From: Mugil cephalus
Taxonomy: Eukaryota; Chordata; Actinopteri; Mugiliformes; Mugilidae
Direction of reading: 5' to 3'
Length of the DNA stretch: 64,000 bases
Assembly: GCF_022458985.1 (NCBI RefSeq)
Contig: NC_061786.1
Location: 23,003,974 to 23,067,973, forward strand
A program made the position numbers and the translations under genes. This document shows, piece by piece, positions 31,121 to 45,400 of the stretch (positions are counted from its first letter, which is position 1; every line of letters starts with the position of its first letter). The notes under the pieces were generated by a model, which was not told where the DNA came from, did no database searches, and saw nothing but the letters and a program-made list of their open reading frames with translations.

Positions 31121-34100
31121 TCACAGCGGCTTCCCCTCGAGAGACACCACCACGTTACCGCCCAGCTTCTCCGCCAGCGTGGTGCGGTCCTGGATGTCGT
31201 CCAGGCCGTTCACCTGCCACTCGTGTTTGATACCTGGGGGAGATGGGGGGGGGCAGAGACAGCGTCAGCGAGGGGGCGGGACTCACCTGACAGACACCTG
31301 AGACACAAGCAGCGTCTCCGTTACAGCTCAACGCAAAATAAAAGAACTTTCACTAAAGTACAACTGAGCTTAGTTTCCATTAAAAGACGTTTAGTGGATG
31401 AACTGGTCACATGACGGAGAAACGAGAAGGAAGTGTTTCCATTGCACTTATGATAAACTTTTATATCTTTACGTCTGAAAAACCACCGCATGAGAGAGTT
31501 AAAGTGTTCTGGCTTTAGATATTTGAGAGGTTTTTAGAAATGCAGGTGTTTTATTGAGATGTTTAAGTTTTGCTCATTTCTGGGGGACAAATAATTACTG
31601 AAGAATAAATTATTTTCCTATTTAAACCTACGAAGCTGATTGATTCAACTTAGCAGCGATGTCTCACTCTGATGTGTTTTTCTCTGAACTTTAAACATCT
31701 GGTCAGAGATTAACTAATTAACATCAGAGTGCGTCATGTGATGCTGGTCTAACAGCTCGTTAGTATCATGCTAATAGATCCGTTAGCCTCGTTTCCAGTG
31801 TCTGAGGACAAAGACTGAGATGCTGAAGAAGAGTTTTTATCCCCATCCATCCACCTGCTCAACTCTGAACTTAAATAACACTGAACTTTATTCACACGGC
31901 TGTTTTTTTGTTTTTGTTTTAGGATATTTGAGAGGTTTTTGAAATGACGGCGTTAACACAAATTAATCCGTCATCCTGATGAATGTGATTAATGAAGCAT
32001 CTGCAGCAGAACGACTGTGAACGTGTCTCAGTTTGTCCAAGTAGCGTTAGCGTTAGCACCAGCTGATCCGGTAGTGACAGACAGCAGAACCAACCCATAA
32101 AGATGGAAGACGCTAAACAGCACGTTGGTCCTCTCCATGTTGGGATTAATCGAAGTTAATCCACCCTGAGATTAATCTGAGCACTAATATAAACTCACCT
32201 GTAAACTTCTTTTTGATGGCATCTTTAGAGCTGGCGTAGATCATCTTACTCTTCAGTGGAGCGCTTTCTGGAGCCCTGAGAGGAAACAACACCTGGATGA
32301 TGGTGATGCTAAAGCTCATGTTAACACAAAGCTAACACCAATGCTAATTACTATGCTAATGGAAAAACACTAGAGGCAGACGCTAATGGCAACTTTAATG
32401 GCAAAGCTAACAACCTTTAACAGCGCTATTAGCATCTTTGTCAGCTTTTCCATTAGTGTCACCTTTATCATCTTCGTTAGCTTTGTCAGTGAAGCTAGTA
32501 CTGAAGCTAAAGGTGACACAAATGGTAATGCTAACTTTAATAACAAAGCTAATGCTGAAGCTAGATGCAAAAGGTGACACTAATGGTAATGCTAATGGTA
32601 ACTTTAATGACAAAGCTAACATTGAAGCTAGTAGTGATGCTTAAGGTGACACCAATAGTGATGCTAATGGTAACTTCAATGACAAAGCTAACGATGAAGC
32701 TAGTAGTGAAGCTAAAGGCTAAACTAATGGTAATGCTAATGGTAACTTTAATGACAAATCAACTTTGAAGCTAGTAGTGATGCTAAAGGTGACACTAATG
32801 GTGATGCTAATGGTAACTTCAATGACAAAGCTAACGATGAAGCTAGTAGTGAAGCTAAAAGCTACACTAATGGTAATGCTAATGGTAACTTTAATGACAT
32901 AGCTAACTTTGAAGCTAGTAGTGATGGTAAAGGTGACACTAATAGTGATGCTAATGGTATCAAAGCTAACACCCGTGCTAAAGGTGACACTAATGCAAAC
33001 GCTAACCTTGATGCTAATGCTAACTTTAATGCTAAAGGCGGGGCGTCCCGTACCAGAAGATGAAGACCAGGTCCTCCTTCTTGGACTCCTTGGTCTCGTA
33101 GGTGGCGTCGTAGAGGCCGTATCGGCAGTCGTTGAGGGGGAGGAGCTTAACGAAGCAGGCGTAGGGGTCGTCCACGGTTTCTCCGATGTCTCCCACCAGG
33201 ATCTGCTTCCCCTCCTCCACGATGATCTTCTTCCTGTCCTCGCTCAGGCAGAACAGCACCGCCTTCTTCCTCTTCTTCACGTCCTCCTGGGAAGACGACT
33301 TCCTCACCTTCATGTCGTTGAACACTCGGATGACCTCATCGTTCACGGTGACACCTGACGCCTGCGGCGACACACAGGAAGTCAACGCAACGCACTTCCT
33401 ACACTACTTCCTTCCTTCCTTCCTTCCTTCCTTCCTTCCTTCAGTCTCGGATGGTTTTACTGTTTGTCTCCTCAGTCGACTGAAAAACACTTTGACGTTT
33501 AAAATACTACGGAGCAGAAGAAGAGTTCAACTCATTCATTCATCCACTGGTAGAAATGAACCTGTTAATTAGTGATGAGACTTTTAAACTAAACTAGAAA
33601 CTAATCTGAACTAGAATCAGCTGAGAGACATGAAAAACATGGACCATCTCCTCAAGTCATAACTCAGACACAAATAACAGCTGACGTCACTCTGAGGACG
33701 GAAGCTTCCTTCCTTCCTTTTCTGTTTGTTTCCTTATTTCCTTCCTTCCTTCCTTCCTTCCTTCCTTCCTTCCTTCCTTCCTTCCTTCCTTCCCTCCTTC
33801 CTCAGTGACCTGGTTCCTCTGAGGATTGAAGCTTCCAGGGTTCAGGTCTAATCTGAGTCTTTGACTCTAAAATAAATTAGAACGTTAACGTGTCAGAGTC
33901 TTTTCCATCTGGTTCCTAAATCTGGATCATGTCTCCAAGTCACCAACCATGTGTCCCTGGTTCTGGTTCTGGTTCTGGTTCTGGTCCAGTGGTAGGTAGA
34001 GATCCATCAGAGGAAGCAGCTGATACATTATTCTACTGACCACATGGTGGCGCTAATTATTTACACACACACATAAAACTTAAGTCAGCGAAGGAAACAC

Positions 34101-39331: not shown

Positions 39332-39418
39332 CGCTTGGTTCAGTGTCGGGATGGAGACGAGGGGGCGCTTGGTTCAGTGTCGGGATGGAGACGAGGGGGC
39401 GCTTGGTTCAGTGTCGGG
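39332..39418. repeat. 34-bp tandem repeat spanning the baz1a stop codon
   Basis: Units start at 39332, 39366 and 39400 (cgcttggttcagtgtcggg...). The unit at 39400 contains the stop codon (39408-39410) and the codons before it; the other two lie in the 3' UTR. Confidence 0.9.
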
Positions 39419-42400
39419 TGCGCTTGGCAGGCGGGGTGGAGCCGCGCTCCGACAGGCCGAGTCTAACGAGCTCCGAGTGGAAGAACTGCTGCAGGCGGAG
39501 GCCGGCTTTGGCCTCGTTAGTGTGACGAGGATTATACTGAAGACAGTTAGAGAACATGAGCTCCACGTCTGAGATGTACTCACCTGGAGGAGGGAGGAGG
39601 AGACGGGGGAAGGAGACGAGGAAGAGAGGGAGGAAGGAGAGGAGGAAGAGCAGTTAGACTTGGAAGTTCAGACTGTGACCAGGAAACAGGAAGTGATGAC
39701 CTCACCTGCCGTCTGATATTCACAGTTGTTGACTTTCTCTCTGACGGTGCTGAGGGCGATCGGCTTCTTGATGATGTCATAGTAGTCAGGAACCTGGACA
39801 GGTGATCACACACATTAATACTATTATTATTAGTACTATTATAATTATTACTACTGTTATTACTGTTGTTACTATTTACTCTTGTTGTTGTTGTTGTTAC
39901 TCTTGAGTTTTGGGATTGATTTGCTGTGTTTCTGGTCGTCAGACGTCAGATGCAGTGAAACCTGAGTTCGTACCTGAGTCCTGGACACCAGCTTCATGAA
40001 GGGCCAGCTGTCCTCATGTCGCACCAGCTCCACCGTCAGCTGCTCGCAGGCCGACAGCTCGTGGACTCCCTGGTTCCTCCCGGAGGAGCGACGGCTGGAC
40101 GAGGACGAGGAGGACGAGGAGGACGAGGAGGACGGGGGGAGGACAGGTTTGGATGGTTTGGGAGGGGGGGCAGGGTCTGGGGAGGAGCACACGGGGTTCC
40201 CCCATACAACATTAATACTAATTTACTCATAACACATGAGGTAATAATAATAATATATGAGAAAGAGCCTTCTTAAAAAGTAAAAATGTCTTGAATGATC
40301 CATTTTTCATTGAGTTTCGTTCTTAGTAAACTTAAAACCTTCTTCTTTTAGGTGGTGAGTTTGATCTACTGGTTGTGTTACCGCCCTCTGCAGGAAAAAC
40401 GTGTTCACTACAACAAGCGTCTGTTCAGTGAATTTGGATTCAGGCTTTTATTTGTTAACATTGTGACATGATGTGTTTACGACGTCATCAGTGACTAATA
40501 ATAATTAAAAATAATAATATATCGACTATTAATCAACAGAGCTGCAACAACTCGTCAGATTCCCACAATAATTTGCAGATTTTATGAGACTAATCTGAAG
40601 ACACAAAGTATCTGGATGATGATTGTTTAACCGACTGGTTGTTTAACTGACTGGTTGTTTCACCGACTGGTTGTTTAACCGACTGGTTGTTGTTTGACTG
40701 ACTGGTTGTTTGACTGACTGGTTGTTTGACTGACTGGTTGTTTACTGACTGACTGGTTGTTGTTTGACTGACTGGTTGTTGTTTGACTGACTGGTTGTTT
40801 AACCGACTGGTTGTTGTTTAACCGGCTGGTCGTTTTACTGGCTGGTTGCTCACCTGTTGCCGCCCTCTTGCGGGACTCGCTCTGACCTGAGGAGGTTTTG
40901 CCGTTGCTGTTTGGCGCCAGGATCTCTTGGCTCAGACGGGCACTGTTCCGAGTCCCGGCGCGGGGCGGGGCTTTACCGCTGGACGCCGCGTTAGCCTTCG
41001 ACGTCGGAGGCGTGGTCTTTTTCCCTGAGGACCTGTGATTGGACAGAGTCAGTAAGTCAGTGAATGTGGGAGCAGTAAAGTGACATCAGGGTGACGGGAG
41101 ATACCGACTTGGAGGCTGATGAGTTTTTCCCTGATGAAGAAGTGCTGTTCTTGGGCGTGGCCTGTTGGGATTTGGGCGTGGCCTGTTGAGATTTGGATGT
41201 GCCCTGTTGAGATTTGGGCGTGGCCTGTTGGCTCTTCCCTCTGGGAGGCGGAGCCTGGCTTTTCTTAGTGCTGCAGCCATTAAATAGAAGGAGAAATTTG
41301 TTACAGACTCATTTCAGAGATGAAGCAGGTTTGAAGAATCCAACACTTACCTCACGACGACTTCTTCCTCCTCCTCCTCTTCTGATTCCTCCTCTTCTTC
41401 AGACTCCTCCTCCTCAGACTCCTCTTCTTCCTCTTCCTCGTCGTCGTCCTCCTCCTCTTCCTCCTCCTCCTCATCGATGGAGGAGCGCTGGCGGGACGGG
41501 ACGCGACTTGACCTTTGTTTGGGTCGACAGTCTGGACAGAACCAGTCGCCTTCTGGAATCGACTGAGACAAAGAGACAAACGGGTTCATCCACTGAAACT
41601 TTTAGCCTTCCAGTTTAGCATTAGCATGATGCTAATACAGACACTTTCTGAAGCTCCAGGTGAATCTATCGTTGTCACTAAGTTGTTAAATCGACGCTGG
41701 TTCTTTAGTGTTTTTAAGTTTGTGGAAAACTGAGTGGAAGTTGAGCAACTAATCAATTAGTCGACAGTCGTCAAATACTTTCAGAACAGCCTCCACATGT
41801 TGTCCTGTATGAGAAATCCCAAAAGAGAAAATGTACATAGACTTGATTTTTAAACAAGTGACGCTTTCCAGAGTTTGAGACAGTTCAAAGAATTTATCAA
41901 TGTATCCGAGATCAAAATACACTTTTTGTGTGACGTTTTATCTTGAGGTGTGGCCTAAGATTGTGATTAAATCAGCTAAAGATAGAGCTCAAGAAGAGTG
42001 GGTGTGGTCTATCTACCTCAAGGCGGGGCCTGAGGCAGTGGGTGTGGTCTATTTATCTTAAGACAATGGGTGTGGTGTATCTACCTTAAGGCGGGGCCTG
42101 AGACAGTGGGTGTGGTGTATCTACCTTAAGGCGGGGCCTGAGACAGTGGGTGTGGTGTATCTACCTTAAGGCGGGGCCTGAGACAGTGGGTGTGGTGTAT
42201 CTACCTTAAGGCGGGGCCTGAGGCAGTGGGTGTGGTGTATTTACCTTAAGGCGGGGCCTGAGACAGTGGGTGTGGTGTATCTACCTTAAGGCGGGGCCTG
42301 AGGCAGTGGGTGTGGTGTATCTACCTTAAGGCGGGGCCTGAGGCAGTGGGTGTGGTGTATCTACCTTAAGGCGGGGCCTGAGACAGTGGGTGTGGTCTAT

Positions 42401-45400
42401 CTACCTTAAGGCGGGGCCTGAGGCAGTGGGTGTGGTCTATTTACCTTAAGGCGGGGCCTGAGACAGTGGGCGTGGTGTATCTACCTTAAGGCGGGGCCTG
42501 AGACAGTGGGTGTGGTCTGTTTACCTTGAGGCGGGGCCTGAGACAGTGGGTGTGGTCTGTTTACCTTAAGGCGGGGCCTGAGGCAGTGGGTGTGGTCTAT
42601 TTACCTTAAGGCGGGGCCTGAGACAGTGGGTGTGGTGTATTTACCTTAAGGCGGGGCCTGAGACAGTGGGCGTGGTGTATCTACCTTAAGGCGGGGCCTG
42701 AGACAGTGGGCGTGGTCTGTTTACCTTAAGGCGGGGCCTGAGACAGTGGGTGTGGTGTCCCCGGTCACAGCTGTCACACAGCAGCATGTTGTCTGCGTCT
42801 CCTTTGCGTCTGCAGATGCGGCAGCGAGCGTTGAGGACGGACCGAGACCAGAGGATGCTCCGCTCCAGACTGGACAGGTGGACAAACACCTGGAGACAAA
42901 CATTTAAAAAAAAAAGATTAAAATTCATCCATGAGTGTGGCGACACCTGAGAGTCTGAGTTTACCATCACCGGGGACGTTGTGGAGAAGGGATGGTGTCT
43001 TACTAGCTTTTTTCTTTAGCTTTTGATACAGCTCCCAAAAACACCATTTTTTATTCAGTGTTTATTTCACATTAGAAAAATTCTGCAGCACATCACCAAA
43101 TTATCCTGTTGTTTAATGGCAGCAGGTTAATTTCCTAACTTCTAGTGGAAGAGGATTAGTCGTATAAATTGGCACAGATGAAGGAAAACTAATTACATGC
43201 AGTAAATAAATAATAATTTTCTGACCAATTAAGTGAAATTTCCTGCAGCACCGTGGTATAATATTATTAACTATTATTATTTTATTACAAACATGTAGCC
43301 TTGGATCTGTTGTTATTCGGCTGGTTCTTATGATGAACTTATTGGTCAGAGCTTAATAATAAAGAATAATAATAAATGAGTTCTGACCTGGGACAAGCTG
43401 GAGCAGGACTGCAGAGACTCCCTCCATCTCTCCAACACCGTCTTAATGACTCGGCCGCTGTCGCTGCCGTCTGACACAAACACAGTAAAGTCAGATTTCA
43501 AACAGTAAAGTAAAAATCAATTCAAGAGACAGAAACAGAAAGACAGAGTAAAAACAAAGACGTGTAGATTATTTAGTTCATACCATCACTGGCCTGGTCT
43601 TCATCCTTCTTCTTGTTCTTCTTCGTCTTCTGGTCTTTCTTCGAGTCATCATCACCTGAAGGAGGAAGGATGAAGTTAAACCTGTGTCTTTACTACATTT
43701 CTGATGTAAATGTGTCTTAGTTTCAGGGAGGGAGACTCACCCAGCGGAGCTTTCAGGAAGCGTCTCTCGATGCCTTGCTCGATGTGGATCAGGGCCTGAG
43801 CCAGGATTCGCACCGAGCTGCTGACGACCTGAGGAGTCCCGCTGCCGCTGGTCCCGCACGGCGCCGACCCGTCGGACTTCAGCTCCTGCAGCCTGACGCA
43901 CAAATAAAACGACCATGTAGCCGACGAAGCTAAAAGAAGCTAAACATTAATGCTAACATGGTGACAACAGTCGCTACCTGTCTCTGCCTCTCAGGTGGGG
44001 AGAGTCCACCTCCATGGCCTCCACTCGTCCGTTCATCCCCGAGTTCTCTCTGCCCTCAGAGCCCAGGAACTCGTAGTTTCCTGCTTCCAGCGCCGAGCGC
44101 CACACCTGTCGGTCCATCACCTGGACACAGAGTGAGGGGGAGGGGGGGGACAGGTGAATGCTGGGTCAGCTCTGTCTGAGGCGACCTGTCACCTGTGCTC
44201 ACTGGGCAGGTGTACACACCTTTAGAGTTCCCAGAGTTCCCTGGTGGATCCGGTCCTCGATGTCCAGCAGCAGGTCCCTCAGTCTCACCTCCATCAGAGT
44301 CTCAGCTGCAGAGGTGCATTCTGGGACAGATCGGGACGACTCTGGGTCATCTGTGAAAACAGGACAGACATATGTTTGTTTTCCTGTGTTTACCCGTGTG
44401 TTTATTTGTGTGTTTATCTGTGTATAATACCCGTGTGTTTACCTATGTTTACCTGGGTGTTTACCCGTGTGTTTACCTATGTTTACCTGTGTGTTTACCT
44501 GTGTGTTTACCTGTGTTTACCCGTGTTTTACCTATGTTTACCTGTGTGTTTACCTGTGTGTTTACCTGTGTTTACCTGTGTGTTTACCTATGTTTACCTG
44601 TGTGTTTACCTATGTTTACCTGTGTGTTTACCTATGTTTACCTGTGTGTTTACCTGTGTGTTTACCCGTGTGTTTACCCGTGTGTTTACCTATGTTTACC
44701 CGTGTGTTTACCTGTGTATTTACCTGTGTTTACCTGTGTATTTACCTGTGTTTACCTGTGTATTTACCTGTGTTTACCCGTGTGTTTACCTATGTTTACC
44801 CGTGTGTTTACCTGTGTGTTTACCTGTTTGTTTACCCGTGTGTTTACCTGTTTGTTTACCTGTTTGTTTACCTGGGTGTTTACCTGGGTGTTTACCTGTG
44901 TGTGTGTTTACCTGGGTGTTTACCTGTTTGTTTACCCGTGTTTACCTGTGTGTGTGTTTACCTGTGTGTTTACCTGTGTGTTTACCTGTTTGTTTACCTG
45001 TGTGTGTGTTTACCTGGGTGTCTGTATTTGTTGTCGTCGCAGTTCTCCAGCAGCTGTTGAAGTCGTTCTCTCTCCTGCTGCAGCGCCTCCTTCAGGCTGC
45101 TCTCTCTGTGTCCTCGAGGGTTCAGGGCCTCGATCAGCTGATCCACCTCCTCCATCGAGCTGTAGAATGACCACTGGTTGGGACGTTTGACTGGCGGGCC
45201 ACAGCTGTGCACGGGGGCGGGGCTTGTGCCGGCGCTGTCAGGGTAACGAGAGGGTCAGTCGTGCGAACGCCACGCGAACAAGATCCACGTCTGGTCTGAG
45301 CGACCTACCTTCCCTCGGCCGGCTCGTCCTTGATGACGTCCTGATCCTCCATCTTGGTCGCGGCCTCCTGGGCCGGTTTGGGCCGAGGCTGCAGCATGTC

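Follow-up and report, generated by a model that had tools for sequence, protein, structure and literature searches.

The array closest in layout to the one described here is the variable number tandem repeat (VNTR) in intron 18 of human ABCA7, reportedly studied by De Roeck et al. (2018). According to the parts of the ABCA7 report drawn on here, this VNTR starts at the exon-18 donor, has a unit of 25 bp and counts 23.7 units in the reference; retention of one unit causes a frameshift with a premature stop, and the frameshift isoforms amount to 14 +/- 6 and 2 +/- 1% "respectively", from which word we read that the figure of about 2% belongs to unit retention. In the same parts, unit retention is described as unaffected by VNTR size and exon 19 skipping as affected (PMC5954066). 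Excerpts of other reports describe the minisatellite of human IFI6 (6-16), in which repeat units supply multiple splice donors (Turri et al. 1995, cited in PMC4526556), polymorphic intron minisatellites of the gilthead sea bream growth hormone gene (PMC3045353), and the gain of introns through tandem genomic duplication (PMC4974935). The present analysis concerns a 64,000-nt stretch of the Mugil cephalus genome (NC_061786.1, positions 23,003,974 to 23,067,973; hereafter the window), in which the 3' half of baz1a lies on the minus strand from ~46.6 to 39.4 kb (contig C17) and carries a 40-bp tandem array that takes in the end of a PHD-finger exon together with its splice donor. It is most aptly classed among the donor-spanning intronic minisatellites, as a new case set apart by a unit consisting mostly of coding exon.

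The ABCA7 VNTR and the baz1a array are alike in that a tandem array flanks an exon and includes its donor, that the unit carries a donor GT, and that retention of one unit leads to a premature stop. On the other hand, the 25-bp ABCA7 unit opens directly with this GT, and exon sequence within it goes unmentioned in the parts of the report used, whereas 34 of the 40 bp of the baz1a unit are coding exon; moreover, polymorphism and splicing were measured in ABCA7, whereas the baz1a array is known here from the sequence of one assembly (PMC5954066). In IFI6, as is predicted for baz1a, minisatellite units offer alternative donors, but according to the excerpt downstream units of IFI6 give rise to alternative protein isoforms whereas 17 of 17 longer baz1a forms stop at once (PMC4526556). 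The sea bream growth hormone gene shares with baz1a the presence of minisatellites in a fish intron; copy number is variable in the sea bream, and a content of exon end or donor, present in the baz1a array, is unreported in the corresponding excerpt (PMC3045353). A survey of the open-licence literature for VNTR units at donor sites recovered the ABCA7 paper only, and no fish case of a donor-spanning intronic array stood out among the matches listed.

Organization of the baz1a array

Tandem Repeats Finder (TRF) reports a 40-bp array at positions 41997-42758 of the window (19.4 copies, score 1216), whose unit is made of 34 nt of exon end and 6 nt of intron start. The exon concerned, exon k (42725..42889, 165 nt; this and all other baz1a features below lie on the minus strand), encodes the first part of the PHD finger and ends in phase 0 at ...CTTAAG. 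Its terminus at 42725 reads ...DRGHHTHCLRPRLK/gtaaac, the true donor hexamer GTAAAC (42719..42724) being assigned from splice signals and the gene model. Unit alignment and suffix recurrence delimit the founder part of the repeat to the last 34 nt of the exon (42725..42758), coding HHTHCLRPRLK, which recur exactly five times within the following intron; the same suffix test applied to the other 15 exon/intron pairs of the baz1a model gives longest matches of 2-9 nt. The array thus spans the donor at 42724 and abuts the exon, which is the donor-spanning layout of ABCA7.

Sixteen complete 40-bp units stand in exact register at 42085..42724, each with a donor-like start (GTAAAC, GTAAAT or GTAGAT) followed by the exon-derived remainder. 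Beyond them, TRF and a unit-by-unit reading define a decayed distal edge (41997..42084) comprising a copy cut down to 28 nt (42084-42057), one of 40 nt with its GT changed to AT (42056-42017) and a partial copy that bears the last donor-like GTAGAT, at 42016. In total, 17 donor-like sites follow the true donor, 16 of them at exact 40-nt steps, and one further copy has AT instead of GT. The 16 full units comprise 10 distinct sequences, the identical ones being units 2 and 7, units 4 and 8, units 10 and 11, and units 12, 14, 15 and 16; this grouping suggests block duplication, with homogenisation of the distal part.

A first-pass annotation of this DNA had described an array of exon end and donor continued by at least 16 further 40-bp units in perfect register, and both statements are confirmed, with the exon end placed in a full PHD match and the register exact to 42085. 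The extent it gave, 42011..42760, holds as to the existence of the array but has to be prolonged to 41997. Its claim that each unit carries a donor-like hexamer after CTTAAG applies to 15 of the 16 full units, the remaining one having CTCAAG, and the acceptor-like string that it attributed to every unit is found in most of the full units, a variant (TGCCTCAG) taking its place in 5 of the 16.

The underlying baz1a model comprises 17 exons, located via splice signals and reading frame. Exons m and n show no in-frame join in this model, and the conceptual protein was scanned as two separate stretches split at that boundary; the WSD, PHD and bromodomain signatures all scored, WSD before the PHD finger and the bromodomain after it. 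Exon k joined with its neighbour exon gives a full PHD match (PF00628, 47/47 positions, E 5.3e-12). Exon l (41351..41562), which follows the array intron and starts with SIPEGDWFCPDC, holds the rest of the PHD finger and the acidic tract; its length of 212 nt is not a multiple of three.

Origin of the array

A 31-mer of the unit, searched with up to three mismatches in the 635-Mb, 24-contig genome, is found at 18 places, which are the exon and 17 intronic copies, and the reversed 31-mer searched in the same way gives no match. No related unit was detected outside the array by this search, which leaves the locus without the relatives expected of a dispersed minisatellite family, and a 750-bp query matched only itself in the genome. 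Since the 31-mer matches nowhere else, the array most likely arose locally from the exon end. As to the direction of copying, the exon copy belongs to a full PHD finger and protein constraint explains its sequence, so that the intronic copies are most readily taken as the derived ones and a passage from exon to intron is the simpler course; the first-pass annotation had proposed the same direction, and the coding nature of the exon copy and the confinement of the 31-mer to the array bear it out. The overall pattern is that of a minisatellite grown in place, the growth process itself being inferred. Paralogous PHD exons at loci L060-L062 (3 of 12 other matches) are unsplit at the corresponding place, and no comparison was obtained from them.

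Gain of the intron itself was also considered. In the AGGT model of intron gain the second copy supplies the acceptor, and the next exon starts with GT. Exon sequence around AG/GT is duplicated in intron gain by tandem duplication as it is in the baz1a array; however, the exon following the array intron begins with TCG and not GT, and the intron does not fit this origin.

Predicted use of the repeated donors

The 17 decoy donors comprise 11 GTAGAT, four GTAAAT and two GTAAAC hexamers, the last being the form of the true donor. Calculated U1 pairing energies are confined to -6.5 to -6.8 kcal/mol at all 18 sites, true donor included. Scores were computed with a donor weight matrix, to which all scores and ranks below refer: GTAAAT decoys reach 8.66, the true donor 7.38 and GTAGAT decoys 6.09, the last one 5.22. 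Four of 17 decoys therefore lie above the true donor, two equal it and 11 lie below, and the decoy nearest to the exon is of the weak GTAGAT form. Among the 15 baz1a donors placed with confidence, the true donor comes tenth, a ranking that omits one unresolved donor and one misindexed cofilin site.

All longer exons were translated in silico. Use of any of the 17 later donors reads ...RPRLKVNRPRPLSQAPP* and runs into one and the same TAA inside the first added unit (in-frame GCC CCG CCT TAA, 42686..42697, stop at 42688-42686), so that the 17 lengthened exons all finish with VNRPRPLSQAPP before this stop. Retention of one unit adds 40 nt, and the TAA then ends 1 nt before the new exon end. No later donor (0/17) keeps an open frame, and productive donors of the IFI6 type are not found here. 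The acceptor-like CTCAG/G within the units leads, as read off the sequence, to GCC CCG CCT TAA and the same stop, and skipping of exon l likewise brings an immediate stop in silico. Every tested inclusion of array sequence is unproductive and none extends the protein. Later exon junctions are situated downstream of this stop, and nonsense-mediated decay (NMD) is therefore predicted for array-including transcripts. It had been claimed in the first-pass annotation that splicing at a distal unit adds 40n nt and encounters a TAA in the first extra unit; the former is correct for the 16 donors in register but not for the 17th, at 42016, which lies off register beyond the shortened copy, while the latter applies to all 17 longer exons.

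The possibility that the donors mask one another by base pairing was considered as well. The junction string CCUUAAGG is self-complementary, and neighbouring donors pair in the minimum-energy fold computed for the exon end with the first units. Accessibility of the true donor, predicted without any unit and with 16 units, is 0.047 vs 0.048, 0.027 vs 0.018 and 0.023 vs 0.007, respectively, in three folding windows; in silico deletion of units leaves it flat from the first few units onward, and 13 of 100 shuffles of the unit cores are as closed as the real array. The true donor is of ordinary accessibility among 16 donors, and mutual masking was rejected.

Interpretation of the array

We consider it likely that the array originated locally as a minisatellite and leaks to a minor extent into transcripts subject to NMD. 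A tandem duplication across the 3' end of the baz1a exon would have produced the founding 40-bp unit (34 exon nt and 6 intron nt), which would then have grown inside the intron by block duplication and homogenisation, a process suggested by the pattern of units. The pre-mRNA would display 17 decoy donors of near-authentic strength, of which the first few might occasionally be used, whereas the exon-proximal donor would be used almost always; decoy products would meet the shared TAA in the first added unit and be removed by NMD. The array would be tolerated without selection, with an effect on BAZ1A level of a few per cent at most that should be largely independent of copy number. The array is real and unusual here; similar repeats occur in humans and probably cause little mis-splicing at most.

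Several points weigh against this explanation. Decoy use, NMD and variation of copy number in the fish array are all inferred, and the four GTAAAT decoys outscore the true donor (8.66 vs 7.38), so that leakage may exceed the level supposed. In addition, the retention figure in the available parts of the ABCA7 report is a steady-state level, possibly lowered by decay, and VNTR length there alters skipping of the following exon, a route that is open in baz1a too (PMC5954066).

The latter route belongs to a regulatory explanation, by which copy number would be a heritable dial on productive BAZ1A splicing, acting either by the choice of decoy donors, with a poison extension as the result, or by omission of the next exon. 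It could draw on the six of 17 decoys that are equal to or stronger than the true donor, on the unproductive outcome of all 17 longer forms and of exon l skipping, and on the variation of ABCA7 exon-19 skipping with VNTR length; the same parts of the ABCA7 report, however, describe one-unit retention as minor and length independent (PMC5954066). The donor bases of the baz1a array, moreover, give no sign of selection, few sites varying at all, and predicted donor accessibility is constant after the first few units. We regard such a dial as unlikely. Tuning of productive BAZ1A splicing by copy number, put forward in the first-pass annotation, is possible though without support here, and the neutral array that it named as the alternative comes closer to the most likely explanation.

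At the other extreme, the array might be fully inert, the choice of the exon-proximal donor being absolute and the decoys never used. In favour of this, the true donor outscores 11 of the 17 decoys, including the nearest one, which is of the weak GTAGAT form, and vertebrates disfavour long exons. A similarly laid-out array nevertheless leaks at about 2% in ABCA7, as far as the parts of the report used here go (PMC5954066), and complete inertness appears quite improbable. It is very improbable that the units act instead as DNA, forming a possible SP/KLF-binding intragenic element. Strings that we take to be a CACCC-type box (CCACACCC/CCACGCCC) and a GC box (GGCCCCGCC) do occur in 16 of 16 full units, but both are also present in the coding exon copy and would thus be inherited from the exon. 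Finally, although assemblies easily miscount the copies of a tandem array, an assembly artefact that multiplied or lost copies is hardly credible, given 10 distinct sequences among the 16 full units with a decayed edge, unlike a simple duplication error, and a contig of chromosome size (24.3 Mb).

The array offers a natural competition test, in which near-identical 5' splice sites stand in series, with most of their context in common and differences at one or two known positions, so that RNA-seq could reveal how the exon-proximal choice works. Coding constraint on the founder copy also points to the direction of birth of a minisatellite, seldom an easy thing to establish. Should alleles vary, the locus would be a fish counterpart of the ABCA7 VNTR in a chromatin-remodeller gene.

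Other arrays in baz1a and its neighbourhood

A second donor-containing array (44373..45005), with a unit of approximately CAG/GTAAACACA, occupies almost all of the 663-nt intron that follows baz1a exon e (donor 45013). The stretch that starts at the true donor and takes in the first 650 nt contains 52 GGT[AG] sites, the true donor being one of them; the last 8 nt of exon e together with the donor recur four times, and 50 of 50 later donors tested in silico lead to a stop. The third array (40623..40848), with a unit of ~16 bp (TTGTTTAACTGACTGG), begins 5 nt after the donor of exon n (40853); the exon end is not clearly contained in its unit, the longest recurring exon suffix being 5 nt. In all, 3 of 16 baz1a introns have an array at the donor, one spanning it and two starting within 8 nt. 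With arrays defined by a period of 10 or more and a span of 60 or more, array cover reaches 24% in the 40-48 kb bin, compared with 4.7% over the window and 2.3% in the 119 kb sampled from the surroundings of 20 kinesin regions, which makes the locus a minisatellite-rich spot. One could go further and suppose that baz1a splice junctions seed minisatellites, two of them (17 decoys after 42724 and ~50 after 45013) having been amplified into poison-donor arrays whose individually varying copy number sets BAZ1A output via mis-splicing and NMD; this extension we hold to be improbable.

Further repeats were observed in the neighbourhood. At 32490-33035, arrays of a 72-bp unit and of a shorter one start ~17 nt past the donor of a cofilin-like exon and fill most of its intron. 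Within baz1a, a 21-bp in-frame coding repeat at 41151-41230 encodes about four QQATPKS-like copies, and a 34-bp repeat of 2.6 copies (39332-39418) spans the last codons and the stop codon and continues into the 3' untranslated region.

Donor-containing arrays in the genome

Placement of the four long arrays (three of baz1a and the cofilin-like one) was tested jointly, with p values of 0.0004 at donor edges and 1.0 at acceptor edges, the test being post hoc, limited to four arrays and performed with the cofilin donor indexed one base off. That arrays lie flush with donors as a general rule was rejected with kinesin exons. For these, 150 of 157 matches were listed and grouped into 55 regions, of which 20 with 56 exon hits were examined; arrays (period of 7 or more, span of 40 or more, within 300 nt) were found on the donor side of 1/56 and on the acceptor side of 2/56 exon hits, the donor being well scored in only 20 of the 56.

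Triple clusters of MAGGTAAAC are common in the genome (145 overlapping places vs 0 in the reversed control), and those of MAGGTAAGT are not (2 vs 18 in the control, a control count probably inflated by tetranucleotide repeats). Five array loci were inspected by eye: L005 has the string on the sense strand, and L004, L018, L024 and L029 have it in antisense or on the acceptor side. No sense-strand bias is seen at these five loci, and the idea that splicing drives the occurrence of donor strings in arrays across the genome was rejected. At L005 (1406-1651), beside a ctc1 exon, the last 18 nt of an apparent exon, mostly CA repeats, are repeated twice together with their GT in the sequence that follows, and the peptide after the apparent exon matches CTC1. 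The peptide of the apparent exon itself gave no CTC1 match in PDB, and L005 is for this reason a weak second case of an exon-end array.

Among the matches listed, several GTAAAC-type arrays lie near contig ends (C8:0.23 Mb; C9:0.10 Mb; C13:0.10 Mb; C14:25.40-25.43 Mb). Others among the matches listed are found at C1:28.04-29.28 Mb, near the middle of a contig of 54 Mb that is about twice as long as most other contigs seen, and might mark an old chromosome fusion.

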